A stretch of 64,000 bases of DNA, taken from Xylogone sp. PMI_703 (lineage: Eukaryota; Ascomycota; Leotiomycetes). Made by a program: the position numbers and the translations under genes. Where the stretch lies: assembly GCA_021399445.1 (NCBI GenBank), contig JAJTUQ010000003.1, forward strand, positions 372,001 to 436,000, read 5' to 3'. A model generated the notes under the pieces. It saw nothing but the letters and a program-made list of their open reading frames with translations, did not search any database and was not told the origin of the DNA. Shown here piece by piece: positions 1-59,103 of this stretch; positions within the stretch are counted from its first letter, which is position 1, and the number at the start of each line of letters is the position of its first letter.

Positions 1-3000
1 TAGTAACACGGATACCAAGGATCACTTGAATCTCCCCCAGGTTCTTGGTATGGAATCGATCTGCCAATGTCTTTCCAAACCATTCCAATTCTTGCACTCT
101 TGGTGCAGCAGCAGCGATGTCATCCACGTGAACGAGTAATATGATCTTGCGTTCTTTGTGGATATAAAGGCAAGGGTCAGCTAAGCTTTGGACAAATCCA
201 ATCTTAACGAGATAACTCTTGCAGAGTAGGTTCCAGTCCCGCGCGGACTGCTTTAGCCCATACAAACTCCGTAGGACACGTAATGCGTACCCGTTCTTTA
301 ACTTGGGTACTCCGTCTGGTTGAGACAGGAAGATTCGTTCTCGTAGGTGTGATTCGGTGAAAGCATTCTTCACGTCATACGAGTGGCATTCAAGGTTTTC
401 CGCTGCAACAATGGCCATGAATATCCGAAGAGTATCCATTCTAACCGTAGGTGCAAACGTCTCAGTGAAATCCTGCCCATATTTCTGAGAGAAGCCTCGA
501 GCAACCAGTCTTGCCTTGAACCTGTTTAATGTCCCGTCGGGGTTCGTCTTGATAGTGAATACCCATTTGGTGGAGACCAAGTTCGCTCCTTCCGGGGGTA
601 TTTCTTCTTCCCATGTGCCGTTTTGCTGTAATGATGCGATCTCTTCGTCAATTGCCTCCTTCCATTTCTGACCATATCTATGATCTGAAATGGCCTCTTT
701 GTACGTCATTGGGATGACAATATCTAGATCTGTTACTAAACTGGCCAGAGCTATCTCGTCTGGGTCTTGGTAATCTTGATCTTCCAGCATTGCAAGCATG
801 GCTTTAACTATCTTGGTAGGACGGTCTTCATCATCAGAGTCATCGAGTCTCTGTCGCTTTCGAAGATCGTACCTCGCTTCCACGGGTTCTGGTGGTGCTT
901 GATTTTCCCCGCCGGACGGGTGAAATTCGATAGGTGATGCTATATTAGCACCAGGTGGTGAATCATGGTTCTCGGCTTGGGCCTGAGATTGATCCCTAAT
1001 TTTATTTTCCTCATCTCCCTCATCTCCTCCTGGATGGGACACATTCACGCTTGGATCGCTTGCATTTTCCTGATCATGTTGACGGCCGGCTGGGCTGGTT
1101 GGATCGTTACGTGTTACCACTGGATTCGCAATGGACGGGATCACAATTTCGAAGTTATTCAAGTCTTTCGGATCTGGGAATGGCATAGACTCGATGACTT
1201 CATTTTGTGGTCGACCTCTTGGTTTACGAATTGCCAGCTCGTTCCTTGTTCCTTGAGGATCACCTGTCCGAAGTTTCAAATCAACTGTTCCGCCTTGGAT
1301 GTCTTCATAAAAGCTGACGCGGCTTGATTTGATGACACAGCCTCTGTCTGGCGCATAGACCTTATATTGTTTGGTCGTGTTTGGATTGTATCCTACAAAC
1401 ACTGCAACCCGTCCATGGTCCATAAGCTTGTCTTTTCTTGATTCCTTCGGGTGCTCCTTTCGGTTGACGTATGACACGCATTTACATCCAAAAACTCTGA
1501 TGTGATCAATGCTTGGGATCTCTCCGGTGAATGCCTGGTACGGGCTAACAACTTTCCCATCAATTGTCGGGCCAGATGCTGTTCGGTTTCTCAGGTATGC
1601 ATCCGTTTCAACAGCGTAGTTCCAGAATTCAAGCGGTAAGCTAGCTTCCTTCAGCAATGCCCGAGCATCTGCTGTAGTTGTCTGGATTGCTCGCTCAGCT
1701 GGACCGTTCTGGTTTGACTTGTACCCTGCTGTTGTTTCTGCCCGAATCCCGATCGAAGTGCTCCATTCGTCTAGTAGTGATAGTAGTTCCGAGGCATTGT
1801 CAGTTCTAATGGCCTTGACTTTCTCCTCCGTCTCGTACTCTACTTGGATCTTCCATGTCCTGAGCTTCTCGACCAAATGTGCTCTTGTCTTTGCAGGAAT
1901 GTTCCAAATGTAACGAGTGGCGCTATCAACAATTTGAGCAAAGTATCGGTCTTCCTTTATTGATGGTGGGAACGGTCCACATGCATCCACGTAGATCAGT
2001 GCAAGCCTCTTACTCTCCCACTCACTCAACGCTTTATTAACACGATCTTTCATCTTGGTGAAGTCGCAGACTTCACAAGGTTCCTTAGTTATGGGTTTTC
2101 GTATTGGCCTGCTTAAGGTGGTAACCTTGTGTAAGTTACAGATTTTCTTTACTCCAAGATGAGCGAATCGTCTATGCCATAAATTATAGCGTTGTGTGAC
2201 TTTCTCCACTGACTTTGGTGCCAGTGTGGGTGAGGTTTCAGTGTCACTGTCAGAATTTTGATTTTCCCCGCCGGGCGGGTTAAATCGCGATTGTCCCTCC
2301 TCCGTTTTAACATCACCAACCAAAGCTGTTTCCTTTGGCCCATTCACGATAGAACTCACAATGTACACTCCTCCGCGTTGCTTGGCTTTAATGTACTGGT
2401 TCTTTTGATTCTTTCGAGTAAAATACATTGCATGTGGATCAAAAGAGCCATCAAAACCTTTTTCGCAAACGCGTCGAGCAGAGAGGAGATTAGCCCCAAG
2501 GTTCGGAACAAGTAAAGTATCAGACAACAATGCAGTACTTCCATCCTTCAATTTCATTTCAGCGGTCCCCTTCTTCCATGCATATAACCTTCCTCCTCCA
2601 ACCTTTATTCCACGACGTCTAATATCGACCATCGGTTGTTTAAAGAGCTGGGGGTTGTCAGTCATGTGAGAAGAAGCGCCTGTGTCTGCAATCCAGACGG
2701 AAGGTTTAACCATACGCATTGCTTCCTTTGAAACTCCTGCAACTTCGTCCTCCTCCTCGGATGAGTCATCAAAACTTGACTCCGTCTCCGACGTCGAATT
2801 AGACTCGGAGGAGTGACCGGCCATGTGACCATGGGCATGACGTTTGGACTTGTTGCTTTTGCGGTGACTCTTGCGCTCGTCATCTCTTATTGCCTTTGGA
2901 GAGTGTCGTGATTTGTTATCCTTGGATTTGAGACCAAGAACATATTTTCTCGCATCACGCCTGAGTTTACAATATTTGATGGAGTGGTTTCCGTCACACA

Positions 3001-3859
3001 AATAGCATTTAACGTCCTTTCGGTCGGGCGAGCTGCTTTCATGTCCGCTCCGTCGACTTGAGCTTCTGCTCCCTTTATCTTGTGATCTTCGTGCTCTCTT
3101 GTCTCTAGCAGCGAGGGCTGTTGAGTTGGTGACCTTTTCTTCGTGTCTTTGGAGGATATCGATCTTGTCCACGATTTCAAGTGTCGGTTGTGCGTCGATC
3201 ACAGTTGTAACTGTCGAGTATTCCTCTGGGAGTCCTGCAAGAAAGAATTCGAATATTTGCTTTGTGCTAAAGCCATCCTTGAGTTCAGGGGTTGCCTTCA
3301 CAACTCTCCTCCTCAACTCTTGTACTCGGATCCATCCCTCTTCGATTGTCATGCCCTGCTCTAACTTGAATGAGGTGAGTTGAGCCATTTCACTTCGAGC
3401 AGCATGAGGTAGTAACTTGCTATACTTGGAGTATAGCTTTGTCCATGCCAGTTGAGCTTCAGACTCGTCGCGGATCAGTTCATTGTCCATGGCATCGATA
3501 CAGATTGAAATCATATATAAAACCTTCGCAGACGCGGCTTCATATTTCTCTTGCTTTTCAATATTCCATATGCCATCCTTTGATCCACTTTGTAGTCCAT
3601 CCTCCACCTTCAAGCTCTCCAGTTGTTTTGCTACACCTTCAATAGTGATCTCGGGTGTTTTCGTGCTTGCTGGTGTAACAGGGGTATTGATCGATGATGG
3701 GGTTCTCTGAATCCAGGCGTATTCTGTGATTGTCTTGTTTAGCACAAATTCTAGCGATTCTCCCTTGAAATAGAGTCTCATCAGTTTAAACCATTCTTGC
3801 CAATTCGCTCTGCTAAGGATGCCAGCAGGGCGTTTGCGTGCAAGGTGATCGGTGTCCAT
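1..3859 (-). CDS. copia Gag-Pol polyprotein, partial (first ~1,286 codons)
   Basis: The ATG is at 3,859-3,857 and the frame runs open to the window edge. Seen in order: a retrotrans_gag-type N-terminus, a CX2CX3HX4C zinc knuckle, the DTGA aspartic-protease motif, the HHCC/GAG-pre-integrase region, the D-D-E integrase core, and reverse transcriptase up to and past the VDD active site (about nt 124). The sequence matches the intact copy at 38,334-43,112, and the incidental antisense reading frames are the same in both copies, so the frame appears undamaged. The product would be processed to capsid, protease, integrase and RT/RNase H for cytoplasmic VLP replication. The absence of a stop cannot be extended beyond position 1. 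Confidence 0.93.
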   Translation of the reverse strand, partial: MDTDHLARKRPAGILSRANWQEWFKLMRLYFKGESLEFVLNKTITEYAWIQRTPSSINTPVTPASTKTPEITIEGVAKQLESLKVEDGLQSGSKDGIWNIEKQEKYEAASAKVLYMISICIDAMDNELIRDESEAQLAWTKLYSKYSKLLPHAARSEMAQLTSFKLEQGMTIEEGWIRVQELRRRVVKATPELKDGFSTKQIFEFFLAGLPEEYSTVTTVIDAQPTLEIVDKIDILQRHEEKVTNSTALAARDKRARRSQDKGSRSSSRRSGHESSSPDRKDVKCYLCDGNHSIKYCKLRRDARKYVLGLKSKDNKSRHSPKAIRDDERKSHRKSNKSKRHAHGHMAGHSSESNSTSETESSFDDSSEEEDEVAGVSKEAMRMVKPSVWIADTGASSHMTDNPQLFKQPMVDIRRRGIKVGGGRLYAWKKGTAEMKLKDGSTALLSDTLLVPNLGANLLSARRVCEKGFDGSFDPHAMYFTRKNQKNQYIKAKQRGGVYIVSSIVNGPKETALVGDVKTEEGQSRFNPPGGENQNSDSDTETSPTLAPKSVEKVTQRYNLWHRRFAHLGVKKICNLHKVTTLSRPIRKPITKEPCEVCDFTKMKDRVNKALSEWESKRLALIYVDACGPFPPSIKEDRYFAQIVDSATRYIWNIPAKTRAHLVEKLRTWKIQVEYETEEKVKAIRTDNASELLSLLDEWSTSIGIRAETTAGYKSNQNGPAERAIQTTTADARALLKEASLPLEFWNYAVETDAYLRNRTASGPTIDGKVVSPYQAFTGEIPSIDHIRVFGCKCVSYVNRKEHPKESRKDKLMDHGRVAVFVGYNPNTTKQYKVYAPDRGCVIKSSRVSFYEDIQGGTVDLKLRTGDPQGTRNELAIRKPRGRPQNEVIESMPFPDPKDLNNFEIVIPSIANPVVTRNDPTSPAGRQHDQENASDPSVNVSHPGGDEGDEENKIRDQSQAQAENHDSPPGANIASPIEFHPSGGENQAPPEPVEARYDLRKRQRLDDSDDEDRPTKIVKAMLAMLEDQDYQDPDEIALASLVTDLDIVIPMTYKEAISDHRYGQKWKEAIDEEIASLQQNGTWEEEIPPEGANLVSTKWVFTIKTNPDGTLNRFKARLVARGFSQKYGQDFTETFAPTVRMDTLRIFMAIVAAENLECHSYDVKNAFTESHLRERIFLSQPDGVPKLKNGYALRVLRSLYGLKQSARDWNLLCKSYLVKIGFVQSLADPCLYIHKERKIILLVHVDDIAAAAPRVQELEWFGKTLADRFHTKNLGEIQVILGIRVT

Positions 3860-4244
3860 CTTCTCAAATGTCGGTGAGATAAGGATGATGAAGATTTTGT
3901 CGTCTTTTGAGCTGTCGTATCGTAACTCAAGGTTAGAGAGACCTATAATTGACTGTTGGGTTTAGATAAATAGGTAAGTATCACGCCAAGGTGCCCGATA
4001 CCGATTAAGGGGCCGTGATCTTCAAGTACTTGCTGTAGACCGACAATTCGTCGCACGTCTACCCGTTTCAAGACTTGGAACCGATCGGTCTGCGTTTCAA
4101 CCGATGCTCTGCAGACTTCTTTCTTCTACAAAGACTTGTGCAGCAACGTGTGTTTTGGCTATCCTTGGTGATAGACTTACGGTGAACACGTCCCAACTGC
4201 TATTCTTCCTAGTGACGCCTCAACATGCGTCCGGGCTCATAACC

Positions 4245-37963: not shown

Positions 37964-38333
37964 CGCATGTTGAGGCGTCACTAGGAAGAATAGCAGTTGG
38001 GACGTGTTCACCGTAAGTCTATCACCAAGGATAGCCAAAACACACGTTGCTGCACAAGTCTTTGTAGAAGAAAGAAGTCTGCAGAGCATCGGTTGAAACG
38101 CAGACCGATCGGTTCCAAGTCTTGAAACGGGTAGACGTGCGACGAATTGTCGGTCTACAGCAAGTACTTGAAGATCACGGCCCCTTAATCGGTATCGGGC
38201 ACCTTGGCGTGATACTTACCTATTTATCTAAACCCAACAGTCAATTATAGGTCTCTCTAACCTTGAGTTACGATACGACAGCTCAAAAGACGACAAAATC
38301 TTCATCATCCTTATCTCACCGACATTTGAGAAG

Positions 38334-41300
38334 ATGGACACCGATCACCTTGCACGCAAACGCCCTGCTGGCATCCTTAGCAGAGCGAATTGGCAAGAAT
38401 GGTTTAAACTGATGAGACTCTATTTCAAGGGAGAATCGCTAGAATTTGTGCTAAACAAGACAATCACAGAATACGCCTGGATTCAGAGAACCCCATCATC
38501 GATCAATACCCCTGTTACACCAGCAAGCACGAAAACACCCGAGATCACTATTGAAGGTGTAGCAAAACAACTGGAGAGCTTGAAGGTGGAGGATGGACTA
38601 CAAAGTGGATCAAAGGATGGCATATGGAATATTGAAAAGCAAGAGAAATATGAAGCCGCGTCTGCGAAGGTTTTATATATGATTTCAATCTGTATCGATG
38701 CCATGGACAATGAACTGATCCGCGACGAGTCTGAAGCTCAACTGGCATGGACAAAGCTATACTCCAAGTATAGCAAGTTACTACCTCATGCTGCTCGAAG
38801 TGAAATGGCTCAACTCACCTCATTCAAGTTAGAGCAGGGCATGACAATCGAAGAGGGATGGATCCGAGTACAAGAGTTGAGGAGGAGAGTTGTGAAGGCA
38901 ACCCCTGAACTCAAGGATGGCTTTAGCACAAAGCAAATATTCGAATTCTTTCTTGCAGGACTCCCAGAGGAATACTCGACAGTTACAACTGTGATCGACG
39001 CACAACCGACACTTGAAATCGTGGACAAGATCGATATCCTCCAAAGACACGAAGAAAAGGTCACCAACTCAACAGCCCTCGCTGCTAGAGACAAGAGAGC
39101 ACGAAGATCACAAGATAAAGGGAGCAGAAGCTCAAGTCGACGGAGCGGACATGAAAGCAGCTCGCCCGACCGAAAGGACGTTAAATGCTATTTGTGTGAC
39201 GGAAACCACTCCATCAAATATTGTAAACTCAGGCGTGATGCGAGAAAATATGTTCTTGGTCTCAAATCCAAGGATAACAAATCACGACACTCTCCAAAGG
39301 CAATAAGAGATGACGAGCGCAAGAGTCACCGCAAAAGCAACAAGTCCAAACGTCATGCCCATGGTCACATGGCCGGTCACTCCTCCGAGTCTAATTCGAC
39401 GTCGGAGACGGAGTCAAGTTTTGATGACTCATCCGAGGAGGAGGACGAAGTTGCAGGAGTTTCAAAGGAAGCAATGCGTATGGTTAAACCTTCCGTCTGG
39501 ATTGCAGACACAGGCGCTTCTTCTCACATGACTGACAACCCCCAGCTCTTTAAACAACCGATGGTCGATATTAGACGTCGTGGAATAAAGGTTGGAGGAG
39601 GAAGGTTATATGCATGGAAGAAGGGGACCGCTGAAATGAAATTGAAGGATGGAAGTACTGCATTGTTGTCTGATACTTTACTTGTTCCGAACCTTGGGGC
39701 TAATCTCCTCTCTGCTCGACGCGTTTGCGAAAAAGGTTTTGATGGCTCTTTTGATCCACATGCAATGTATTTTACTCGAAAGAATCAAAAGAACCAGTAC
39801 ATTAAAGCCAAGCAACGCGGAGGAGTGTACATTGTGAGTTCTATCGTGAATGGGCCAAAGGAAACAGCTTTGGTTGGTGATGTTAAAACGGAGGAGGGAC
39901 AATCGCGATTTAACCCGCCCGGCGGGGAAAATCAAAATTCTGACAGTGACACTGAAACCTCACCCACACTGGCACCAAAGTCAGTGGAGAAAGTCACACA
40001 ACGCTATAATTTATGGCATAGACGATTCGCTCATCTTGGAGTAAAGAAAATCTGTAACTTACACAAGGTTACCACCTTAAGCAGGCCAATACGAAAACCC
40101 ATAACTAAGGAACCTTGTGAAGTCTGCGACTTCACCAAGATGAAAGATCGTGTTAATAAAGCGTTGAGTGAGTGGGAGAGTAAGAGGCTTGCACTGATCT
40201 ACGTGGATGCATGTGGACCGTTCCCACCATCAATAAAGGAAGACCGATACTTTGCTCAAATTGTTGATAGCGCCACTCGTTACATTTGGAACATTCCTGC
40301 AAAGACAAGAGCACATTTGGTCGAGAAGCTCAGGACATGGAAGATCCAAGTAGAGTACGAGACGGAGGAGAAAGTCAAGGCCATTAGAACTGACAATGCC
40401 TCGGAACTACTATCACTACTAGACGAATGGAGCACTTCGATCGGGATTCGGGCAGAAACAACAGCAGGGTACAAGTCAAACCAGAACGGTCCAGCTGAGC
40501 GAGCAATCCAGACAACTACAGCAGATGCTCGGGCATTGCTGAAGGAAGCTAGCTTACCGCTTGAATTCTGGAACTACGCTGTTGAAACGGATGCATACCT
40601 GAGAAACCGAACAGCATCTGGCCCGACAATTGATGGGAAAGTTGTTAGCCCGTACCAGGCATTCACCGGAGAGATCCCAAGCATTGATCACATCAGAGTT
40701 TTTGGATGTAAATGCGTGTCATACGTCAACCGAAAGGAGCACCCGAAGGAATCAAGAAAAGACAAGCTTATGGACCATGGACGGGTTGCAGTGTTTGTAG
40801 GATACAATCCAAACACGACCAAACAATATAAGGTCTATGCGCCAGACAGAGGCTGTGTCATCAAATCAAGCCGCGTCAGCTTTTATGAAGACATCCAAGG
40901 CGGAACAGTTGATTTGAAACTTCGGACAGGTGATCCTCAAGGAACAAGGAACGAGCTGGCAATTCGTAAACCAAGAGGTCGACCACAAAATGAAGTCATC
41001 GAGTCTATGCCATTCCCAGATCCGAAAGACTTGAATAACTTCGAAATTGTGATCCCGTCCATTGCGAATCCAGTGGTAACACGTAACGATCCAACCAGCC
41101 CAGCCGGCCGTCAACATGATCAGGAAAATGCAAGCGATCCAAGCGTGAATGTGTCCCATCCAGGAGGAGATGAGGGAGATGAGGAAAATAAAATTAGGGA
41201 TCAATCTCAGGCCCAAGCCGAGAACCATGATTCACCACCTGGTGCTAATATAGCATCACCTATCGAATTTCACCCGTCCGGCGGGGAAAATCAAGCACCA

Positions 41301-43112
41301 CCAGAACCCGTGGAAGCGAGGTACGATCTTCGAAAGCGACAGAGACTCGATGACTCTGATGATGAAGACCGTCCTACCAAGATAGTTAAAGCCATGCTTG
41401 CAATGCTGGAAGATCAAGATTACCAAGACCCAGACGAGATAGCTCTGGCCAGTTTAGTAACAGATCTAGATATTGTCATCCCAATGACGTACAAAGAGGC
41501 CATTTCAGATCATAGATATGGTCAGAAATGGAAGGAGGCAATTGACGAAGAGATCGCATCATTACAGCAAAACGGCACATGGGAAGAAGAAATACCCCCG
41601 GAAGGAGCGAACTTGGTCTCCACCAAATGGGTATTCACTATCAAGACGAACCCCGACGGGACATTAAACAGGTTCAAGGCAAGACTGGTTGCTCGAGGCT
41701 TCTCTCAGAAATATGGGCAGGATTTCACTGAGACGTTTGCACCTACGGTTAGAATGGATACTCTTCGGATATTCATGGCCATTGTTGCAGCGGAAAACCT
41801 TGAATGCCACTCGTATGACGTGAAGAATGCTTTCACCGAATCACACCTACGAGAACGAATCTTCCTGTCTCAACCAGACGGAGTACCCAAGTTAAAGAAC
41901 GGGTACGCATTACGTGTCCTACGGAGTTTGTATGGGCTAAAGCAGTCCGCGCGGGACTGGAACCTACTCTGCAAGAGTTATCTCGTTAAGATTGGATTTG
42001 TCCAAAGCTTAGCTGACCCTTGCCTTTATATCCACAAAGAACGCAAGATCATATTACTCGTTCACGTGGATGACATCGCTGCTGCTGCACCAAGAGTGCA
42101 AGAATTGGAATGGTTTGGAAAGACATTGGCAGATCGATTCCATACCAAGAACCTGGGGGAGATTCAAGTGATCCTTGGTATCCGTGTTACTAGGAATCGA
42201 AAAGAGAAAACACTATTCTTAGATCAAGAACAATACCTGGATAACATTTTGAACCGATATGGAATAACTCAAGAGAAGCACAGGCCAAAGTCAGTGCCAA
42301 TCTCTAGTTATGACAAGCTACGCCCGACTTCAGACTTTGACAAGAAGGCAAACCTGACCGAGTATCAAGAGCGCATAGGAAGCCTGATGTACGCGATGAT
42401 AAACACCAGACCAGACATCGCGTTCGCTCTAGGCAAGCTTAGCCAGTACATGAGTAATCCTGGAGAGCACCATGCCAGTGCCGTAAAGGAACTCTTGAGA
42501 TATGCCAGATCAACGATCAAACAGCGAGTCCGTTATGGGCCAACTCCAATTCAAGCCAACCAATCGTCACGCCAAAGTAATGACGACAACAGACAAGCCG
42601 GTAGCTCTACACTAGTCATGTATTCAGATGCAGACTGGGCAGGAGACAAGACCGACCGGAAGAGCACTTCAGGAAACGTAGCCATGCTTTACGGAGGGCC
42701 TGTTTCCTGGGGGAGTAAGAAGCAACGTTCAGTGGCAACTTCAAGCACTGAATCAGAATACATTGCAATGTCAATGTGTGTCAAGCAGAGCCAATGGATC
42801 GCTCAAATACTCCGTGATATGGGATTCCCTCAATATATTGGGTCAGACCCGATGACTGTACAAATATTGGGAGATAATCAAGGCGCACTCGCGTTGGTAA
42901 AGAACCCACACCTTCACGAGCGATCAAAGCATATTGATATCTGTTACCACTACATCCGCGACCTAGAAGAGCGTAAACGCATTATCGTCAGCTACGTTCC
43001 CACAGCAGATATGGTAGCCGATGGCATGACAAAGCCGTTGCAGAAGACAATGTTCATGCGGTTCAAGGAACTACTTGGTCTGGCAACAGTAGGAGCAATT
43101 AAGAGACAGTAG
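38334..43112 (+). CDS. copia Gag-Pol polyprotein, intact (1,592 aa)
   Basis: A single frame encodes all retrotransposon functions. Seen along the protein: gag (about residues 15-240); zinc knuckle CX2CX3HX4C from Cys285; aspartic protease DTGA at Asp392; GAG-pre-integrase H/C residues near 560-600; integrase catalytic triad Asp625, Asp687 and Glu722 (34 residues between the last two); RT with STKWVF, LVARGFSQ and the VDD active site at 1246-1247; RNase H with Asp1432 and SSTESEYIA. All catalytic residues are present. Gag and Pol share one frame without a visible frameshift, as in many copia elements, so their ratio must be set by RNA or protein processing. The ATG lies 385 bp beyond the LTR, after a leader. 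Confidence 0.97.
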   Translation: MDTDHLARKRPAGILSRANWQEWFKLMRLYFKGESLEFVLNKTITEYAWIQRTPSSINTPVTPASTKTPEITIEGVAKQLESLKVEDGLQSGSKDGIWNIEKQEKYEAASAKVLYMISICIDAMDNELIRDESEAQLAWTKLYSKYSKLLPHAARSEMAQLTSFKLEQGMTIEEGWIRVQELRRRVVKATPELKDGFSTKQIFEFFLAGLPEEYSTVTTVIDAQPTLEIVDKIDILQRHEEKVTNSTALAARDKRARRSQDKGSRSSSRRSGHESSSPDRKDVKCYLCDGNHSIKYCKLRRDARKYVLGLKSKDNKSRHSPKAIRDDERKSHRKSNKSKRHAHGHMAGHSSESNSTSETESSFDDSSEEEDEVAGVSKEAMRMVKPSVWIADTGASSHMTDNPQLFKQPMVDIRRRGIKVGGGRLYAWKKGTAEMKLKDGSTALLSDTLLVPNLGANLLSARRVCEKGFDGSFDPHAMYFTRKNQKNQYIKAKQRGGVYIVSSIVNGPKETALVGDVKTEEGQSRFNPPGGENQNSDSDTETSPTLAPKSVEKVTQRYNLWHRRFAHLGVKKICNLHKVTTLSRPIRKPITKEPCEVCDFTKMKDRVNKALSEWESKRLALIYVDACGPFPPSIKEDRYFAQIVDSATRYIWNIPAKTRAHLVEKLRTWKIQVEYETEEKVKAIRTDNASELLSLLDEWSTSIGIRAETTAGYKSNQNGPAERAIQTTTADARALLKEASLPLEFWNYAVETDAYLRNRTASGPTIDGKVVSPYQAFTGEIPSIDHIRVFGCKCVSYVNRKEHPKESRKDKLMDHGRVAVFVGYNPNTTKQYKVYAPDRGCVIKSSRVSFYEDIQGGTVDLKLRTGDPQGTRNELAIRKPRGRPQNEVIESMPFPDPKDLNNFEIVIPSIANPVVTRNDPTSPAGRQHDQENASDPSVNVSHPGGDEGDEENKIRDQSQAQAENHDSPPGANIASPIEFHPSGGENQAPPEPVEARYDLRKRQRLDDSDDEDRPTKIVKAMLAMLEDQDYQDPDEIALASLVTDLDIVIPMTYKEAISDHRYGQKWKEAIDEEIASLQQNGTWEEEIPPEGANLVSTKWVFTIKTNPDGTLNRFKARLVARGFSQKYGQDFTETFAPTVRMDTLRIFMAIVAAENLECHSYDVKNAFTESHLRERIFLSQPDGVPKLKNGYALRVLRSLYGLKQSARDWNLLCKSYLVKIGFVQSLADPCLYIHKERKIILLVHVDDIAAAAPRVQELEWFGKTLADRFHTKNLGEIQVILGIRVTRNRKEKTLFLDQEQYLDNILNRYGITQEKHRPKSVPISSYDKLRPTSDFDKKANLTEYQERIGSLMYAMINTRPDIAFALGKLSQYMSNPGEHHASAVKELLRYARSTIKQRVRYGPTPIQANQSSRQSNDDNRQAGSSTLVMYSDADWAGDKTDRKSTSGNVAMLYGGPVSWGSKKQRSVATSSTESEYIAMSMCVKQSQWIAQILRDMGFPQYIGSDPMTVQILGDNQGALALVKNPHLHERSKHIDICYHYIRDLEERKRIIVSYVPTADMVADGMTKPLQKTMFMRFKELLGLATVGAIKRQ

Positions 43113-43418: not shown

Positions 43419-44015
43419 AATTCCTTTAATATATTAAGCCAGACTTAATGATTATACAAATATTAAGGGACAACCAAAACATATTCACGTTAATAAAGAA
43501 TTTATACTTTCACGAATAATCAAAGTATATTAATATTTGTTACTATTACATTTATAACTTAGAGAAATATAAATATATTAAGATAAATTATGTTCTTACA
43601 GCAGACATAATAATTAATAGTATGACAAAGTTGTTACAGAAGATGATATTCACGTAGTTCAAGGAATTATTTAGTCTAGTAACAATAAGAATAGTTAAGA
43701 GACAGTAAGAGTGGCTGAAAAATGATGTTGACGAGGTGAAACTGACATAAACTACATTATAACACTTGTATGATCTGAGTAAGAGTATTAAGAATTATGA
43801 GAACAGAGTATACTGGCACTCAGTAGTTATGTGATCAGAATAGAACAATTAATAATCTAGTAAGAAAGTATTTAAGGGTACAGCTCCTTAAATACTGAAT
43901 ATAAGTATAAGCATACAATACATAAGCCAATATAAGCCTATTCAACCCTACAATACAGTAGTACCTAGTGAACCAACACTTCTATAATATGAGCCTAATA
44001 GTCATAATCTTAACA
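43419..44015 (+). pseudogene. RIPed copia relic, RNase H end and 3' LTR
   Basis: Continuation of the relic at 36,873-37,718. 43,424-43,715 follows the end of the intact polyprotein and trailer with transitions (for example TTAATATATTAAGCCAGAC against CTCAATATATTGGGTCAGAC). 43,786-44,015 is its 230-bp 3' LTR, beginning TATTAAGAATTATG (RIP form of TGTTAGGAATTATG) and ending TTAACA. Confidence 0.9.
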
Positions 44016-44430
44016 ATAATCTTCTTTTTGTGACATTTCACAAAATCTCTTACTTAGTTTTTCTTTACAGACTCTTGTATTATCTTTTTCGCTAAATTAT
44101 GAATAATCTGACTAATTGATGATATTCCTCGGTCGGTAAAGTAGTTAATATACTTGATTAGAATACTTTCTTGAGTATTATTGAGTCGTTATCTATGGAT
44201 AGACATAGCAGTCTTCATGGAGGTGTATTAACCGTTGTATCGGTTTACAAGGATAGTATGCTCAAGGCCATACTTTTTAGCTATAACACTAAAATTAGGC
44301 TTCTTTTGCGATTTCAAATCTGCAATCGCCTCTTGAATTAAGGCTTCGTTGACTTTCATATTGGCGGTTGAAGTGTGGTGGTCAGGGGTAAAAAAGTGGG
44401 AAAGTTGCCGGAGTGGGAAAGTTGCCGGGA
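44016..44430 (-). mobile_element. pogo/Fot1-like DNA transposon, 5' stub
   Basis: On the minus strand an ATG at 44,359 opens a frame starting MKVNEALIQEAIADLKSQKK, followed by NFSVIAKKYGLEHTILVNRY and, after stops, further helix-turn-helix-like blocks. This is the CENP-B/psq-type DNA-binding N-terminus of fungal pogo/Tc1-mariner transposases. Two stop codons (TAG and TAA) fall where Gln or Arg would be expected, matching RIP. The copia relic truncates the reading at 44,016. Upstream of the ATG, 44,384-44,427 holds a terminal-repeat-like sequence with GTGGGAAAGTTGCCGG written twice in tandem. The catalytic DDE domain is absent, so it is inactive. Confidence 0.75.
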
Positions 44431-44738
44431 ATACGCGTACATGAGGCTATAATGAATAGGTGTAAGCTAAATAATTGGGTTCCGGTAGAAGACCAGGCCC
44501 ACTAAACAGCTAGCTTGGCGCTTTGACTGATAAATCTCATTCGGTGTAGGACATGTGCGACAATTTGAGCGAACAGTGCACTGGAGCTATAGCCTACAGT
44601 TACAGTCAGACGTTATACACAAAATTTCCTAAGGAGATGTCTGTAGTTTAGGCAATATACGATATCGATTACGGGAAAGGGAAGTAGGATGGGGAGTGGG
44701 GCGTAGAATTTGGTTGGGACAGTGTTATTCATCTATAT

Positions 44739-45101
44739 CTAGTTCTTATAGGTTCCATATGCACCACTGGCAATGAGTGGGTTATCCGTTTCTGCTTCTC
44801 TTTTATATGTCCCATATGCTCCACCGGCAATCAGTGGATTGTCGGTCTTAGCCTTAGCTTCCCTCTTATAAGTTCCGTAGGCTCCGCTTGCAATGAGAGG
44901 GTTAACTGTCTCTGCTTCTCGTTTATATGTACCGTATGCTCCACTAGCAATGAGAGGGTTGTCTATATAGCGTTTGATAATAAAGTTAGTAGTTGGTCAT
45001 GTATGGCTTTCCATTTAGAAGATCCTCATACCGACTGGAGCGGCATACACAACTGCGACAAGCTGCAGTAAAGCAACAGCTACTGGAGTGATTGCCTTCA
45101 T
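44739..45101 (-). CDS. RiPP precursor with four kexin-excised core repeats (dikaritin/cyclic peptide type)
   Basis: Two exons, 45,101-45,032 and 44,962-44,739, joined across a 69-nt intron with GTATGA donor, CTAAC branch site and TAG acceptor (the split codon reads GAC, Asp). The product is 97 aa. Residues 1-20 form a signal peptide ending VVYA before APV. Four copies of NPLIASGAYGTY follow (the third has Gly for Ser), separated by KREAETV, KREAKAKTD and KREAETD. KR is the kexin cleavage signal, and EA/ET dipeptides suit Ste13-like trimming. The last copy ends KN-stop without KR. This is the architecture of UstA, AprA and GigA precursors, and two UstYa-like oxidase genes lie next door. The mature product would be a secreted peptide, probably macrocyclised through tyrosine. 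The core is not one I recognise. Confidence 0.92.
44745..44962 (-). repeat. in-frame core/spacer repeats of the precursor
   Basis: Four 36-bp core units spaced by 21, 27 and 21 bp of spacer codons. The cores differ at most third codon positions (Ala, Ser, Gly, Thr, Tyr, Lys and Arg codons vary) while the peptide stays constant apart from one Ser/Gly change. The spacer of the second interval carries two extra codons (AK inserted). Confidence 0.9.
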
Positions 45102-45213
45102 GGTGTATAAAAACTTTCCTAAGAAAAGATACAGAAATTTAGAAGCTAAGCAAAAGTTGACAGGTAGAATTAAGTGATAACGAAGGAGTTTACCTTTGGA
45201 TACGGCTTGGCGT

Positions 45214-45221
45214 CTTATATA
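45214..45221 (-). promoter_or_regulatory. TATA box of the precursor gene
   Basis: TATATAAG on the minus strand, 113 nt upstream of the precursor ATG, in a 471-bp gap between this gene and the stop of the 264-aa UstYa-like gene. The position fits a core promoter, so the precursor appears to have its own promoter rather than being read through. Confidence 0.5.
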
Positions 45222-45572
45222 CACTGGATATGTCTGTATCCCAATCATTCGCATACTTTCCTAAGCTGGAAGGTTCTGAAACTATCAACGGTCGTATTGC
45301 TCTAGCCTTTCTAGGCAGGAAGATAAGCATAAGTAACGTATGACTGCATGTACTTCGGTGAAGCTACTCCGCATCCACATATAAGCTAGACCCCGGATGT
45401 ATGGATTCTTTAGCCCTCACCCACTTGTTCAATGGTATACAAAATTCAAGCAGCTAACGCAAGTTCGAGTTTGAAAGCTCAGAAGGCTTATCTTGGTGAA
45501 TTATCATAGTCCTAATGCAAAAGGTGGTAAAGCCGCTAGTGGCATACCTTTTTAGTTGACATTATCAGAATT

Positions 45573-46631
45573 CTAACCAGATACTAGTCCTATATCATCC
45601 CACATAACGGCTCGCTCACTTTTGTAATTCCACTCCAGTATACTATCAAACTTTCTACACATCTGTACAGTATTAAAATCTGGAAAAGGAAGTGGCTGAC
45701 TAGGATTATTATAGAACACGACGGGAACTACATCGCTATTACACATGAGATGTTGCCGGAGAATGTCAATACAATGATCTGGTCACTGAATTAGCTCCTG
45801 GTATACATATCTGCGATGTATCAGTACCTGAATGTATCTGCCGATTCGTTGCGTTTTCGCTCATGTAGATTTCTGCGTAGTAGTCTTTGTGAATAAGTTT
45901 ACGTAGTGAATCCTGTTGCAGAATTAGCTACGGAATATCCCACTGAGTTGTATAATCGCTTGGATGAGCGTGGGATCTTACCAGGCAGTGTAACAGGTGG
46001 AATACTTCTATCATAGCCAGATACCCACCACCACCCTCTTCTGGTAGTTTATAATATTCCTTCGTCTCAATTGGCAAGCTCAGCAGTTTTAGCTCATGTT
46101 CGTATAACCTTATTGCCGGTACACCTATCAAAAAGAATAATAATATCAGTTTCACCAGCTCTGTTTAGATGGCATAGTGAGAAAATTACCCATGGAGATG
46201 CGTCTCCAAGCTTCATCAATCTCTGGACCAGGCGGCCCCCGATATTCATTCCTACCATTGATCTCGCCGTCCATGGTTTTTTTGACATACTCAACTATAT
46301 GCAGGGCAGGCGCTAAAACAAACGCTGACCGTTAGCTCTCATTCATTCTAAGACGGTAGGTGCTAGTATAGTAATCATGAGAGAAAGTCTTATGAGATTT
46401 CTACTCACACCATGTAGACAGTTGTTGGATACATGTCTCAGCTGTTTGTATATAATAAATATGCACGGCTACAGAATAACAGGCAAATATCAAAATATGA
46501 CAGAGGCAGATCAGCGAATTCCAGCTTATGAAGCGACAGGTATTTCCAGCCTTCCGCTCTGACTTCTCTTCATCGATATGAATTCGTCTGTCATTTTGCG
46601 CGACAGCAACGTACTTTGATCCAAATTTCAT
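45573..46631 (-). CDS. UstYa-like (DUF3328) oxidase, 264 aa
   Basis: Five exons: 46,631-46,409; 46,312-46,190; 46,124-45,982; 45,927-45,828; 45,778-45,573. All four introns (96, 65, 54 and 49 nt) are GT-AG and all phases agree. Order in the protein: short basic N-terminus, one membrane segment (about 39-61), the YRGPPGPEIDEAW block, then two HxxHC motifs (H158-L-L-H161-C162 and H195-S-D-H198-C199), followed by DILRQHLMCNSD and PDF...CRKFDS. These motifs define the UstYa family, membrane-anchored oxidases that cyclise or hydroxylate core peptides in ustiloxin, phomopsin and asperipin pathways. It lies 471 bp upstream of the precursor on the same strand, so it is the prime candidate for acting on its cores. 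It looks intact; the start was chosen at the ATG giving a usual-length cytosolic tail. Confidence 0.9.
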
Positions 46632-47239
46632 ATCGATAGAAGCGAATATGGGTAGAAAGCTTGTCGAAATATCGTAAAGGTACTGAGGAGCGGCGAGATT
46701 CACCTCGAGTATGGCTAAACTTTATCCAGTAACTTCCAGAAGTTGCTCGCAACTAATTGTATGGTTAGTGAATAGCTTCCTATAGAGGCTACCGTCCTGC
46801 AGACATACGTATTGTGATTACTGTTGATGTTGTACTTTCATTCTATCTATCCGAACAACCTTCTACTCTGGTCTTAGTTCCGGGCGAACATAACGTGCAT
46901 AATGCAGCTACAAGCACACACAGAGCAGGTGTTGTCAGATTGGACATACTGTAGCGGAGTTCTTCGGTGTCAGGGAGCAAAGAAACCTGCCGCTAGGGGA
47001 AAGGCTAACAGTCGTTCACTAGGCTCTGTACTGCAACGGTCGCTCGGCAATGCGGTATCCAATTATACGTATTCAGAAGTCTTGTCACTTAGCATCCCAC
47101 TTATGCATGTACCCCCATATGGAACGCAGTTGATGGTAACCATCAGAAACTCTAGGTATCTTACAGAAGCTTATCATTCATGTAACTTGATTGATACATC
47201 ACCCTTTCCAAACCTTCAGATTGGAATTTGTTATTCTCC
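46632..47239. promoter_or_regulatory. divergent promoter between the two UstYa-like genes
   Basis: A 608-bp gap separates the two start codons, so both oxidase genes are probably controlled from a shared region. I see no convincing TATA box or known operator. A CGGGCG/CCGGGC-containing patch near 46,878-46,890 could serve a zinc-cluster regulator, but this is speculative. The 161-codon plus-strand frame at 46,902-47,387 overlaps exon 1 of the right gene and looks accidental. Confidence 0.5.
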
Positions 47240-48196
47240 ATGTATTCCAAGGCTCAGCGATACCTGCCATTACCAGTCGGTGAATTTGGCGAAGTATCCA
47301 AGAAATTTCAATACAGGAAATCAGATATCGTGGCATGCATTCATAAGTTGTATTCTATTATTATTTCTGTCCTTGCAATCAGCTTGATAATATTGCTTGT
47401 CCGTTCACATCGATCCCAAAGTAGACTGCCGTGCGGCCTATTGCCTTCTGAGATACGTATGGAAACAATATAATTGGCAAAAGAGGAAGCACTATTAATC
47501 AAATTCTAGCTTTTGCTCAAGATGCTGTGCACTACAGGGAGGTAACTTTTGATCCAAGTGGATTTTGGGAAGACCCCTTGATGTCAACCCCCTATGAAGG
47601 AGAACCCTCGCCAGAAACAGACGCAATGTGGAAGCGACTTACAAATGGTATGATTATAACGTTATAAAATACATAATGCGGAAAATCAAGTGGGAACTAA
47701 TCGATTTAGTTGGAATGTACTCACTCACTAAGGAGGAGTACGATCAACTGCCTTTAGAGACAACTGAAGTTCCCGGGCAACCAGGCCAATATCTAGTTAC
47801 GATCGAAGTTTTCCATCAACTACATTGCTTGGTATGATGTCAGATATATACAAAGTCAATGATTCTAACAAAACTAGAACTATATCCGTAAAGCAGCATA
47901 TGGAGTATACCAAGATATCGAGTCTCGGCATTCTAGGGAAATGCATCTGAGTAAGTTTCTCTACCCGTAGATCATGGGTATTCCTTACGGCTAAACTTCA
48001 CTTAGCTCACTGTGTGGACTACTTGCGTCAGGTTCTCATGTGTCATAGCGATCTATCATTAATCACTTTACGGCGTGACGATGACCGGTTACCGCCGGTC
48101 ATGCCAGATTTCAGAATTCGGCATACTTGTAGAAACTTTGAAAGTGTCTGGGAATTTGCGGCAAAAAGAAATTTGTCTGGTATAACGGTTGAATGA
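47240..48196 (+). CDS. UstYa-like (DUF3328) oxidase, 246 aa
   Basis: Five exons: 47,240-47,456; 47,510-47,647; 47,710-47,831; 47,878-47,950; 48,006-48,196. The GT-AG introns are 53, 62, 46 and 55 nt, and all phases join cleanly. Protein: short N-terminal tail, membrane segment at about 37-54, YEGEPSPETDAMW block, first HxxHC (H154-Q-L-H157-C158) in IEVFHQLHCL, second HxxHC (H182-L-T-H185-C186) leading into VDYLRQVLMCHSD, then PDFRIRHTCRNF and a short tail. The length and both motifs match the UstYa family. Known clusters often use two such enzymes, acting on different bonds or as a complex; here the two are clearly diverged paralogues. An upstream in-frame TTG exists, but the first ATG is at 47,240. 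Confidence 0.9.
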
Positions 48197-55185: not shown

Positions 55186-58100
55186 TTATTGTTGTTGTCC
55201 AAGACAGAAATCATTTGATCCGTCAACAATACAATTGAAGAACGGCTCTACTGCAAAAGTGTCACCATTAACAGTACATCCATTTGATGCTCTATTTTGA
55301 CGCTCGCAAAGAATATGCGCGCTTCCTACATTACCGGCTGTAAAAGAATTAACTTCAACTTTTCCTCATTGGCATATAAAGAAGAGGTGATGATAAACTT
55401 ACTAAAGGCTAGGTCCGAACCCGTAAGGGTAATGTCTTCATTGAATCCACAAGCACGTCTTAATGTGAAACTGTTAGCACCAGGAATGAAAGTATTGAAA
55501 TTTATAGGTTGGATGGTGTTGCCACTGGGATCAATCAGTGTCATCTCGGTATCACTGTTGACAACTTGCTCGCAGCTCCAGCTTTGTGGCCAAGCCAATG
55601 AGAAAAATTGCTGGTCTGCACCAAATCCTTCTGTCCCAATACCGATGAAGAAGAAACTGCTCAGAGTTGGAGATGGAGCAGAACTTGTTGCGGTGGAAAC
55701 TCTACTTGCAGACACTGAAGTCGAAATTGCGGAGACCGAAGTTGTAACTGATGGAATCGAAGGTGGAGTAGGTCCAAGATCCCCCGGACCTAGAGTTACA
55801 ATATCACCAGGAGAGGGGATACTGATTACAGGGTTCGGGTCGGGATCCTCCCAGCTTTGAGCATCATGTTCTTCAAGAACAATTAAGTAGTAGGCGTCCT
55901 CATCCTCGTCATCTGGTATCTCATCTAGCGGAGGTGCCACAAGAGGCGGTCCGACGGGGGGCACGGGGATCCAGCCGACGGGGATGATAATAGGGAATTC
56001 GGGCGTATGAGTTGGATCGTAAGTGTTGATTGTGGGACTTCCAGTTGGATCGACTCCTGGTACCGTGAATGTGGCAGCAGGAGGGAACCCCTGAGTGATG
56101 GGGAACGGCGCCGGCACATCCTGACCCGGAGGTATTTCGATACTGAAACATGTTGAACCACCTGTACCACAGCAGGTCCCCGTGATAAGCCGATATATGT
56201 CGCATGTCTCAAGGCAGTTATCTGACCCTGGGGGATTGTTATTTGTGCCAACCGTCGGCAGGGCCACAATGGCGCTTGCACACGTGGGCGAGAGAGTGAG
56301 AGTTTGTCCACAGGTGATTTGACCGCAAGGGCCATTGAGACTATCGACTGCGACCAGTCCATCTGGGGTTGGATTGTTCTGCGCGCTAACAATACCACCG
56401 ATGTTGGCTCCAGTCAAGGCAAGAGGCAGCCAGGCACTGATAGCAGTAAGGAAGCCGTTTCGATTGTCAGCCTGCTGTACGGCGGTGATGCCACCAAGGG
56501 GGGAGACACACTCAGTCGCTCCTTTGGTATATTGGCTGTACATCCAGATGCCTTGCGAAAAGTCGGTCTGTACGAGACGCGACTGGCAGCCCTCGGTACC
56601 AAGACAGTCCTGTGAATAGCTCGAGAAGAAGCTGTAAAAACCAGCACCATAGATAAAGATATCGGTGGAGTCTCGGATAATCAGAGCCCAAGCCGTAAGA
56701 CATTGGGGATCACTAGGGTTGCAGTCGTCAAAGGTTGGATCACTGTCCCAAACACCAATTGGAAAGAGATTAATAGCATCGGGCGTAGGTTGATAGTACG
56801 GCGTCTCGGTCTGCATATGGCCGATGAAGATGTTGGATGCGTTGGAGAACTGGTACTGATATAGAGAGGAGTGCTCACTGGCACTGCCCCAGAACCAGGT
56901 TGGCCCATCGCTCTCAACAAGAAGACCACGTCCTACAAGAACACTGACCATAGGCTGGGCTGGATTGTCTATCTCATGATCCGCGACCCAGAGCCAGTTG
57001 TTCTCGAAGTATCCTGACGCGCCTGAGGTGACATGCATCAGCATCGAGGCTGCTTTGCAGTCTGTATTTATTCCACCCATTTGAGGACATTCCGCATCTT
57101 GCAGCAGAGTACCCGTAGCACCACCTACTCGCACATAGCAATCCCACATTCCAGCGCTACCCTGGCTGCTTGCTTTGATATTCCATTCAACAAGAACAGC
57201 GCCTCCAGTACCTCCGCCCTGAGCAGTAAACATCAAATCGGAGAACTCAACATCACCCACATCCCCAGGATTGCCAACACGGACTACTGGCACCGGGTTG
57301 GTCGTGTCACTAAATGTTTCGCCAAAGCCCATGAGCTGAGACCAGGCTTCCCCAACAATGCGAGATCCAGGGGGTACGAACAAGGTGTTGGCAATCATGT
57401 AGATGCCTGCTGGAATGAACACTACTGCACCGTTGGCTGCAGCAAATGCTGCATTAAGAGCAGCGCTTTGGTCCCTTGCATTAGGATCTCCAACAGCACC
57501 AAAAGAGGCAACGTTAATGACGGATCCGGCGGAAATCGTTTCATACTGTGGTTTAGACCTCGTAAACCACTTCCCAGTCCCATCAAGCAATGCGGCTGGT
57601 TTGTTGGGAGCAGGATCAAGATTACCGGCGGTGCTTGTGCCAGAATCGTCAGTGGAAATATATCGGCGACCCATTGCCCACGACTGTATAGTCGTGGCAG
57701 GGCCAGTCGTCCCTTCGAGGATGGTTGCCCCTCCAGAAACCAAAACTACAGAAGGGGTATTTCCCTCAATCAGAAGGTTATCAATAGTTATAGCAGGTTG
57801 AATGTCTGCTGTGACGGTGATTGCAAACGGCACGGCATTGAAGTGGGAGTCGATAACCGTCAGACTACCAGTCCCCTGTTTGTCAAGACCACCAAAATTG
57901 GTGCAATCAAATGCAATGAAGGCAGAGTTGACAAAAATATTCTGCCATGTCCAACCCCAATCCCATATCATACTGACAGCTACAGATGGTAGGGTGATAG
58001 TGATATCCCTGGCCGTGAATTGCTGGCTCCCAACTCGCATGGCGATATTACCGCCAAAGAATGTCAGGTCACTCATAAAGCCGCCAGAGCCATTCTCTGT

Positions 58101-59103
58101 AAAGAGTCCCACGGCTGTGGTCCCACCACCTAGGGACATAACAAAGTCGATGTTTTGCAGTGATGTCGACTGGGCCACCTGCCAGTGAATGCCTGTAGGA
58201 ACAAACGTTTGGTCACCGGATTGGTTCTCATTGGGCATCGCTGTGACATCGATAACAAAATTACGAATTTGACGATAGAATTGGTTCTGGTTGATATACC
58301 ACTCACTACCATTGCCTCCTGGAATATAGACATCAGTGTCAATAAGGGCAATTCCTTTGAAGCTAGCCAAGCCCTTAATTGTTGGCTTAGTGTTTGGATC
58401 ACCAATAAACTGAGTGTAATAATACTGGATAATTGGCGAAGAGACCATGTAAGTGCCGGGTGGGAAGAAGACGATAGCTCCTAGGGTAGTGGTTGAGCCA
58501 CAGGATAATCCACATCGGTTCCCGTCTTGGACAGCTCGATTTATGGCATCAGTGTCTATCCTCTAGTTAGTTATACTCAAACCAAAGTCGAATGAGATGA
58601 AAGGCTCCTACCATCCGTAACTCCATCGCCTTTTGCACCATAATCCATTACATTCCTCCATACCGGATACCCAGCTGGTGCAAATGGCATCTGTAGTAGA
58701 GAATTTATGTTAGAAGGTAGCCCTGTCTCTCAAATCTTGTGGGAGTGAGGATGCCACTGGAGGTTTTATATGCGAAACAACGTACCTGGCCGTGTTGCAT
58801 GTTTGCAAGCCAATATGAACTTCCTGCGGTTTGTCTCTTGGTAATAGTATTAGCATATGAGGCGGAAGATCCAGCATAACTCATGGCGGCGGTGGAGGGC
58901 AGAAGTTGTTCAATCTTTGCTTCATACTGATCAGGAGCAACATAGAAGTAATTGTTCTAGTTATTAACCATATATTTTGGTATAAGCCTGGGTGGACCTG
59001 GAGCAGTAAAGTTCTTGGGCAATGAAGTAGGTCGAGGCAACGATGCTGCCATGCATTGCACCAGCCCTCCAAGAAGGAAGCACGATACTCGTAGAAACAG
59101 CAT
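55186..59103 (-). pseudogene. secreted GH55 exo-beta-1,3-glucanase-like gene with one in-frame TAG
   Basis: Four exons: 59,103-58,786; 58,690-58,612; 58,555-55,403; 55,337-55,186 (introns of 95, 56 and 65 nt, phases consistent), 1,233 codons. Signal peptide about 1-20; a propeptide ends at a kexin site TITKR (about 90). The first pectate-lyase-3-type beta-helix starts at VWRNVMDYGAKGDGVTDDTD (116-135), the second at VINVASFGAVGDPN (about 478). The VEWN motif near 589 is where the GH55 catalytic Glu is expected. An acidic/Pro linker lies around 990-1,010, then a Ser/Thr-rich stretch and a Cys-containing tail. GH55 enzymes release glucose or short units from fungal beta-1,3-glucan. Codon 49 (58,959-58,957) is TAG; CAG-to-TAG or TGG-to-TAG would be a RIP-type change. 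The rest is undamaged, so the loss is recent, or an unusual start or splice avoids it. Confidence 0.85.

Follow-up and report, generated by a model that had tools for sequence, protein, structure and literature searches.

A probable dikaritin-type RiPP cluster with a conserved core peptide in Xylogone sp. PMI_703

Do a short repeat-containing gene and two adjoining oxidase genes of Xylogone sp. PMI_703 (class Leotiomycetes) form one biosynthetic cluster, and what might such a cluster make? We analysed a stretch of 64,000 nucleotides, hereafter the window, which corresponds to C19:372001-436000 (assembly of 50.1 Mb in 25 contigs, contig C19 comprising 8,055,043 bases). From its sequence, the gene trio at 44739-48196 is probably a compact dikaritin-type RiPP cluster, a reading to which we give a probability of about 0.85. 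Its parts, in window coordinates, are as follows.

45101-44739, minus strand: precursor gene, two exons and one intron, 97 residues (98 codons with the stop)
45032..45101, minus strand: precursor exon 1, with the start codon and the hydrophobic leader MKAITPVAVALLQLVAVVYAAPV (hydropathy over 15 residues 2.44 on average)
44963..45031, minus strand: precursor intron, 69 nt, GTATGA...TACTAAC...TATATAG (from the sequence)
44739..44962, minus strand: precursor exon 2, four cores, KREAET/KREAKAKT spacers and stop (from the sequence)
44925..44960, minus strand: core 1, NPLIASGAYGTY (this and the other cores from precursor translation and column comparison)
44868..44903, minus strand: core 2, NPLIASGAYGTY
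44805..44840, minus strand: core 3, NPLIAGGAYGTY
44748..44783, minus strand: core 4, NPLIASGAYGTY, then KN and stop
45573..46631, minus strand: U1, UstYa-family oxidase, 259 aa (Pfam UstYa, 1.1e-52); exons of the gene model 46409-46631, 46190-46312, 45982-46124, 45828-45912 and 45573-45778
46632..47239, no strand: intergenic region between the divergent U1 and U2, 608 bp (from gene-model coordinates)
47240..48196, plus strand: U2, UstYa-family oxidase, 246 aa (Pfam UstYa, 2.6e-46); exons of the gene model 47240-47456, 47510-47647, 47710-47831, 47878-47950 and 48006-48196

The precursor leader has 23 residues and, as judged by hydropathy, a hydrophobic N-terminus, with an AxA-like end; KR follows three of the four NPLIA[S/G]GAYGTY cores. 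U1 and U2 lie head to head with five exons each, and PF11807 (DUF3328/UstYa), the family that defines the dikaritin class, scored above its cut-off for both. Each oxidase carries a pair of HxxHC motifs (HLLHC and HSDHC in U1, HQLHC and HLTHC in U2) and, by hydropathy, one hydrophobic N-terminal segment that is probably membrane-spanning. All nine introns of the three gene models (1+4+4) are GT-AG, and the intergenic region between the oxidases is perhaps a shared promoter region. An earlier note on this DNA had described a leader-bearing precursor with four kexin-spaced cores beside two UstYa-like oxidase genes with both HxxHC motifs and consistent introns, the whole being an apparently intact dikaritin-type set; each of these elements was found as described, the frames are open and the introns canonical, and its limits proved exact, the stop codons of the precursor and of U2 ending at 44739 and 48196. 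The dikaritin-type reading follows from the UstYa family matches, the double HxxHC motifs, the hydrophobic leader, the kexin-spaced Tyr-containing repeats and the direct adjacency of the genes, an anatomy that gives it good support as far as gene structure can.

Public annotation covers this trio unevenly. The GenBank protein F5884DRAFT_897231 is identical to our U2 model over 246 of 246 residues. F5884DRAFT_854037 (172 aa) coincides residue for residue with the C-terminal 172 positions of U1, so that this public model is 87 residues short at its N-terminus, where exon 1, which encodes the hydrophobic segment, and the first part of exon 2 are absent. Exon 1 of U1 is supported by the relative P0003, in which CVERLSSWSPGLPAVEY aligns with CIQQLSTWSPALHIVEY over the exon junction. 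Homologue searches returned three proteins for U1 and 56 for U2, in both cases including the gene's own GenBank model; the U2 homologues include proteins of Rhypophila, Pestalotiopsis, Tricladium, Lasiosphaeris and Phialocephala (P0007-P0010, P0013). The precursor search, which took proteins 0.55 to 1.75 times the query length, returned one relative and no public protein from the Xylogone sp. PMI_703 genome, and within that length range, which a strongly different public precursor model would escape, the expectation that annotation had overlooked the precursor was borne out. In practice, the protein collection searched yielded no model of this precursor, and the shortened U1 has lost its hydrophobic anchor.

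The cores themselves bear signs of constraint. Of their 36 nucleotide columns, 11 are variable, comprising 10 third positions and one first position (Ser to Gly); were variable columns random, this third-position excess would have P ~3e-6, a figure to be taken as a guide and not as an exact test because the core repeats are related by duplication. Such near-synonymous drift with a single Ser/Gly change counts for a dikaritin cluster and against decay. The one match of the precursor search, P0001 (among 77 candidates; a protein from a public contig of 1504 bases), resembles the window precursor in having four LIASGAYGTY cores, one in each of its four repeats, KREAE/KRAAE spacers and a similar leader, but it has Thr or Val after Asn where the window has Pro, and its spacers are longer. 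It also has 24 additional residues precisely at the position of the window precursor's intron, which may represent a retained intron. LIA[S/G]GAYGTY is thus kept in all eight repeats of the two precursors while the spacers differ, so the functional core is likely the Leu-to-Tyr stretch; the core of the earlier note, NPLIA[S/G]GAYGTY, holds in this part but not in its Pro, which is not conserved. What matters here is that a core sequence is kept in two sources while the remaining precursor drifts.

Neither NPLIAS nor LIASGAY was found in the texts of the open-access literature searched, and among the matches listed for the letters GAYGTY/GAYGSY the titles concerned assays, pathogens and epigenetics. 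Within that scope the core is as unfamiliar as had been supposed, and the product of the precursor is probably undescribed. The novelty lies in a probable new product and a conserved core; the kind of cluster is already known and its principle is not new.

Comparison with known dikaritins places the trio near, but apart from, each of them. The ustiloxin and phomopsin systems (UstA, PhomA; UstYa, UstYb) share with it a leader, kexin-spaced repeats and UstYa-family oxidases with two HxxHC motifs; the number of oxidases is two here and in ustiloxin, whereas phomopsin has five (PMC7329392). The EDYXI core motif given for ustiloxin and phomopsin in PMC6339444 does not fit NPLIA[S/G]GAYGTY. Core tyrosines are C-terminal here and N-terminal in ustiloxin and phomopsin, and no tyrosinase or peptidase was found here in the stretches scanned. 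Asperipin-2a (AprA, AprY), with the core FYYTGY, differs in core sequence and in having one oxidase against two here. Like the trio it has several tyrosines per core, and according to PMC12048977 it has no peptidase gene, just as none was found here in the stretches scanned. Epichloecyclin (GigA) likewise has Ile ahead of an internal Tyr, and an Ile-Tyr link is described for it in PMC9233826, but its cores are nonapeptides of other sequence with an N-terminal Ile.

The dikaritin route, as outlined in PMC9233826 and PMC7329392, comprises secretion, cleavage by Kex2 and trimming, with UstYa-family proteins cyclising the core. By analogy with that family, the Xylogone precursor would enter the secretory pathway and be cut by Kex2 after KR, a dipeptidase like Ste13 and a carboxypeptidase like Kex1 would trim its ends (the KREAE spacers being of the Kex2/Ste13 type), and U1 and U2 would introduce one oxidative cross-link, or two, into each core. 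The presence of two tyrosines in GAYGTY and of two oxidases suggests that a core may carry as many as two links; the phenol partners would likely be Tyr9 and Tyr12 of NPLIASGAYGTY, joined to Ile4, to Leu3 or to one of the residues that separate the two tyrosines. Tyr-Ile links are described in ustiloxins, phomopsins and epichloecyclins (PMC9233826). The predicted product is a secreted cyclic peptide with one ring or two, 10 to about 15 residues long. It is probably undescribed, and candidate masses can be given for it. The computed [M+H]+ values for the linear form, one link and two links are 1226.605, 1224.590 and 1222.574 for NPLIASGAYGTY; 1196.595, 1194.579 and 1192.563 for NPLIAGGAYGTY; 1555.764, 1553.748 and 1551.733 for ETVNPLIASGAYGTY; and 1571.722, 1569.707 and 1567.691 for ETDNPLIASGAYGTY. 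A three-gene set is, moreover, small enough for assigning bonds to individual UstYa proteins.

Some features fit this route less well. Since no action of Ste13 is predicted for ustiloxin and phomopsin precursors in PMC6339444, the KREAE spacers are a poorer fit to that pattern. When 48.2-52.8 kb was scanned with Pfam in all six frames, no family of peptidases, tyrosinases, methyltransferases or transporters scored above its cut-off, nor did any in the longer ORFs to 60.3 kb, longer ORFs being what was covered outside the six-frame stretch; Pfam matches below their cut-offs were left out of account. The absence of a peptidase has a precedent in PMC12048977. The predicted U2 model matched no solved fold, which leaves the mechanism without structural support. 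UstYa-family proteins also perform hydroxylation and chlorination, as described in PMC12048977, so that cross-linking by U1 and U2 is not certain. We consider it unlikely, however, that the two enzymes hydroxylate or halogenate the peptide with no cyclisation: UstYa-family proteins of cyclochlorotine clusters are reported to act in this way (PMC12048977), but each core here has two tyrosines, and the Tyr ring is the linked residue in ustiloxins, phomopsins and asperipin-2a (PMC7329392). We retain the dikaritin-type reading, and infer that U1 and U2 cross-link the core.

A more specific proposal, which we offer tentatively and with the odds somewhat against it, is that the LIASGAYGTY core represents a dikaritin subclass of its own, shared by at least two fungal species. 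In this subclass each of two dedicated UstYa oxidases would take one C-terminal tyrosine to give a bicycle, with release by an alpha-factor-like Kex2/Ste13 route and not by a cluster peptidase.

The surroundings raise the question of whether the cluster is still active. About 4-38 kb of the window is AT-rich (20-37% GC per kilobase), with TA/AT >1.1 and (CA+TG)/(AC+GT) <0.9 over most of its length and intermediate values at 20-29 kb, a bias that we read as repeat-induced mutation (RIP). Copia-type frames flank this long block on both sides. The other features recognised in the window are as follows.

2-3961, minus strand: Copia-type open reading frame, running off the left window edge
38232-43112, plus strand: Copia-type element whose single open frame spans 1626 codons
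54463-54972, plus strand: DUF3425 domain (Pfam scan of longer ORFs), which may belong to a regulator gene running from about 53.8 kb
55329-58562, minus strand: large open frame with two Pect-lyase_RHGA_epim (pectate-lyase-like) stretches (Pfam scan)

L051, about 20-23 kb to the right of U2, holds a regulator of the Zn2Cys6 type together with a sugar transporter.

Some 34 kb of AT-rich sequence lie upstream, followed by a Copia element, and the cluster might be decaying or silent, its genes looking intact but being unexpressed. The kilobase that holds the precursor (44001-45000) has TA/AT of 1.10 and (CA+TG)/(AC+GT) of 1.00, near the values of the AT-rich block, and a two-core NPLIANGAY remnant with neither an oxidase nor a recognisable leader is found on contig C24, ~15 kb from one contig end. 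Against this, the oxidase kilobases (46001-48000) are less biased (TA/AT 0.92 and 0.83), the frames are open, the nine introns canonical and the core drift synonymous, and we judge a silent or decaying cluster distinctly unlikely.

Is a cluster of this kind exceptional in the genome? A repeat precursor next to a DUF3328 gene is a known pattern: in the 2020 survey by Umemura (PMC7329392), 7878 kexin-processed repeat proteins were collected, 1758 of them with DUF3328 among the 15 nearest genes. PF11807 gave 108 matches in the Xylogone genome, which merge at 10 kb into 54 loci, seemingly a large repertoire for one genome. Chance neighbourhood with UstYa genes is possible given these 54 loci, which bears on a further explanation, namely that the precursor yields a secreted peptide that is cut by kexin but otherwise unmodified (a pheromone or signal) and the adjoining UstYa genes serve another pathway. 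Its KREAEA-type spacers are those of alpha-factor precursors, and a pattern search found no separate alpha-pheromone gene (one match against two in the control, the frame of the match having no kexin repeats). We nevertheless regard this explanation as very unlikely: the precursor has no Pfam family above its cut-off, its immediate neighbours are the two UstYa genes, its cores lack Cys where Leotiomycetes alpha pheromones have two conserved Cys (PMC6339444), and precursors annotated as mating factor or pheromone have, with three exceptions, no DUF3328 gene nearby (PMC7329392).

A detector of kexin-flanked repeats found precursors at at least 6 of the 54 UstYa loci, with some DNA covered for 45 loci and at least half of +-5 kb for 16, four of the six positive loci falling among these 16. 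The six precursors come from 11 detector rows after removal of window copies (L031, L032) and shadow frames (two at L034, one at L045). The detector gave no match in 1,813,125 bases of control sequence generated by a first-order Markov model, none in the rest of the window beyond 44-49 kb, and none in 39,075 bases from six loci of this genome that had been picked for reasons other than UstYa. With at least five further precursors at UstYa loci, the cluster in the window is one of several of its kind. Those five are the following.

L034 1105-1890 (C21:1747161-1747946), plus strand: 13 [AVE]PLLYGYGKRE units (detector)
L037 5615-6085 (C21:5.39 Mb), minus strand: 8 units like AETEILGDNDSYTLSPKR (detector)
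L045 567-842 (C20:1.61 Mb), minus strand: 7 units like DEDGIRAGDFKR (detector)
L035 5849-6340 (C19:2.2 Mb), plus strand: SSGTAVGPVAEEVVETYDKR units, 4 by detector and 5 by eye
L015 3129-3482 (C19:6.146 Mb), plus strand: at least 4 NNPKFDYPG units, reaching the locus end (detector)

The L034 precursor lies ~1.4 kb from UstYa-family matches at C21:1745062-1745783, and is not a blind find because it was brought in by the search with the window precursor; LLYGYG was absent from the open-access literature searched. The C24 remnant (L033 1471-1581, C24:15293-15403, plus strand) was weighed as a possible second precursor but not accepted, since it has two cores, no recognised leader and no UstYa match nearby, the only one on C24 being at 1.138 Mb. 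Upstream of this remnant lies a GWDPVTGLGTPN stretch, reminiscent of sedolisin peptidases.
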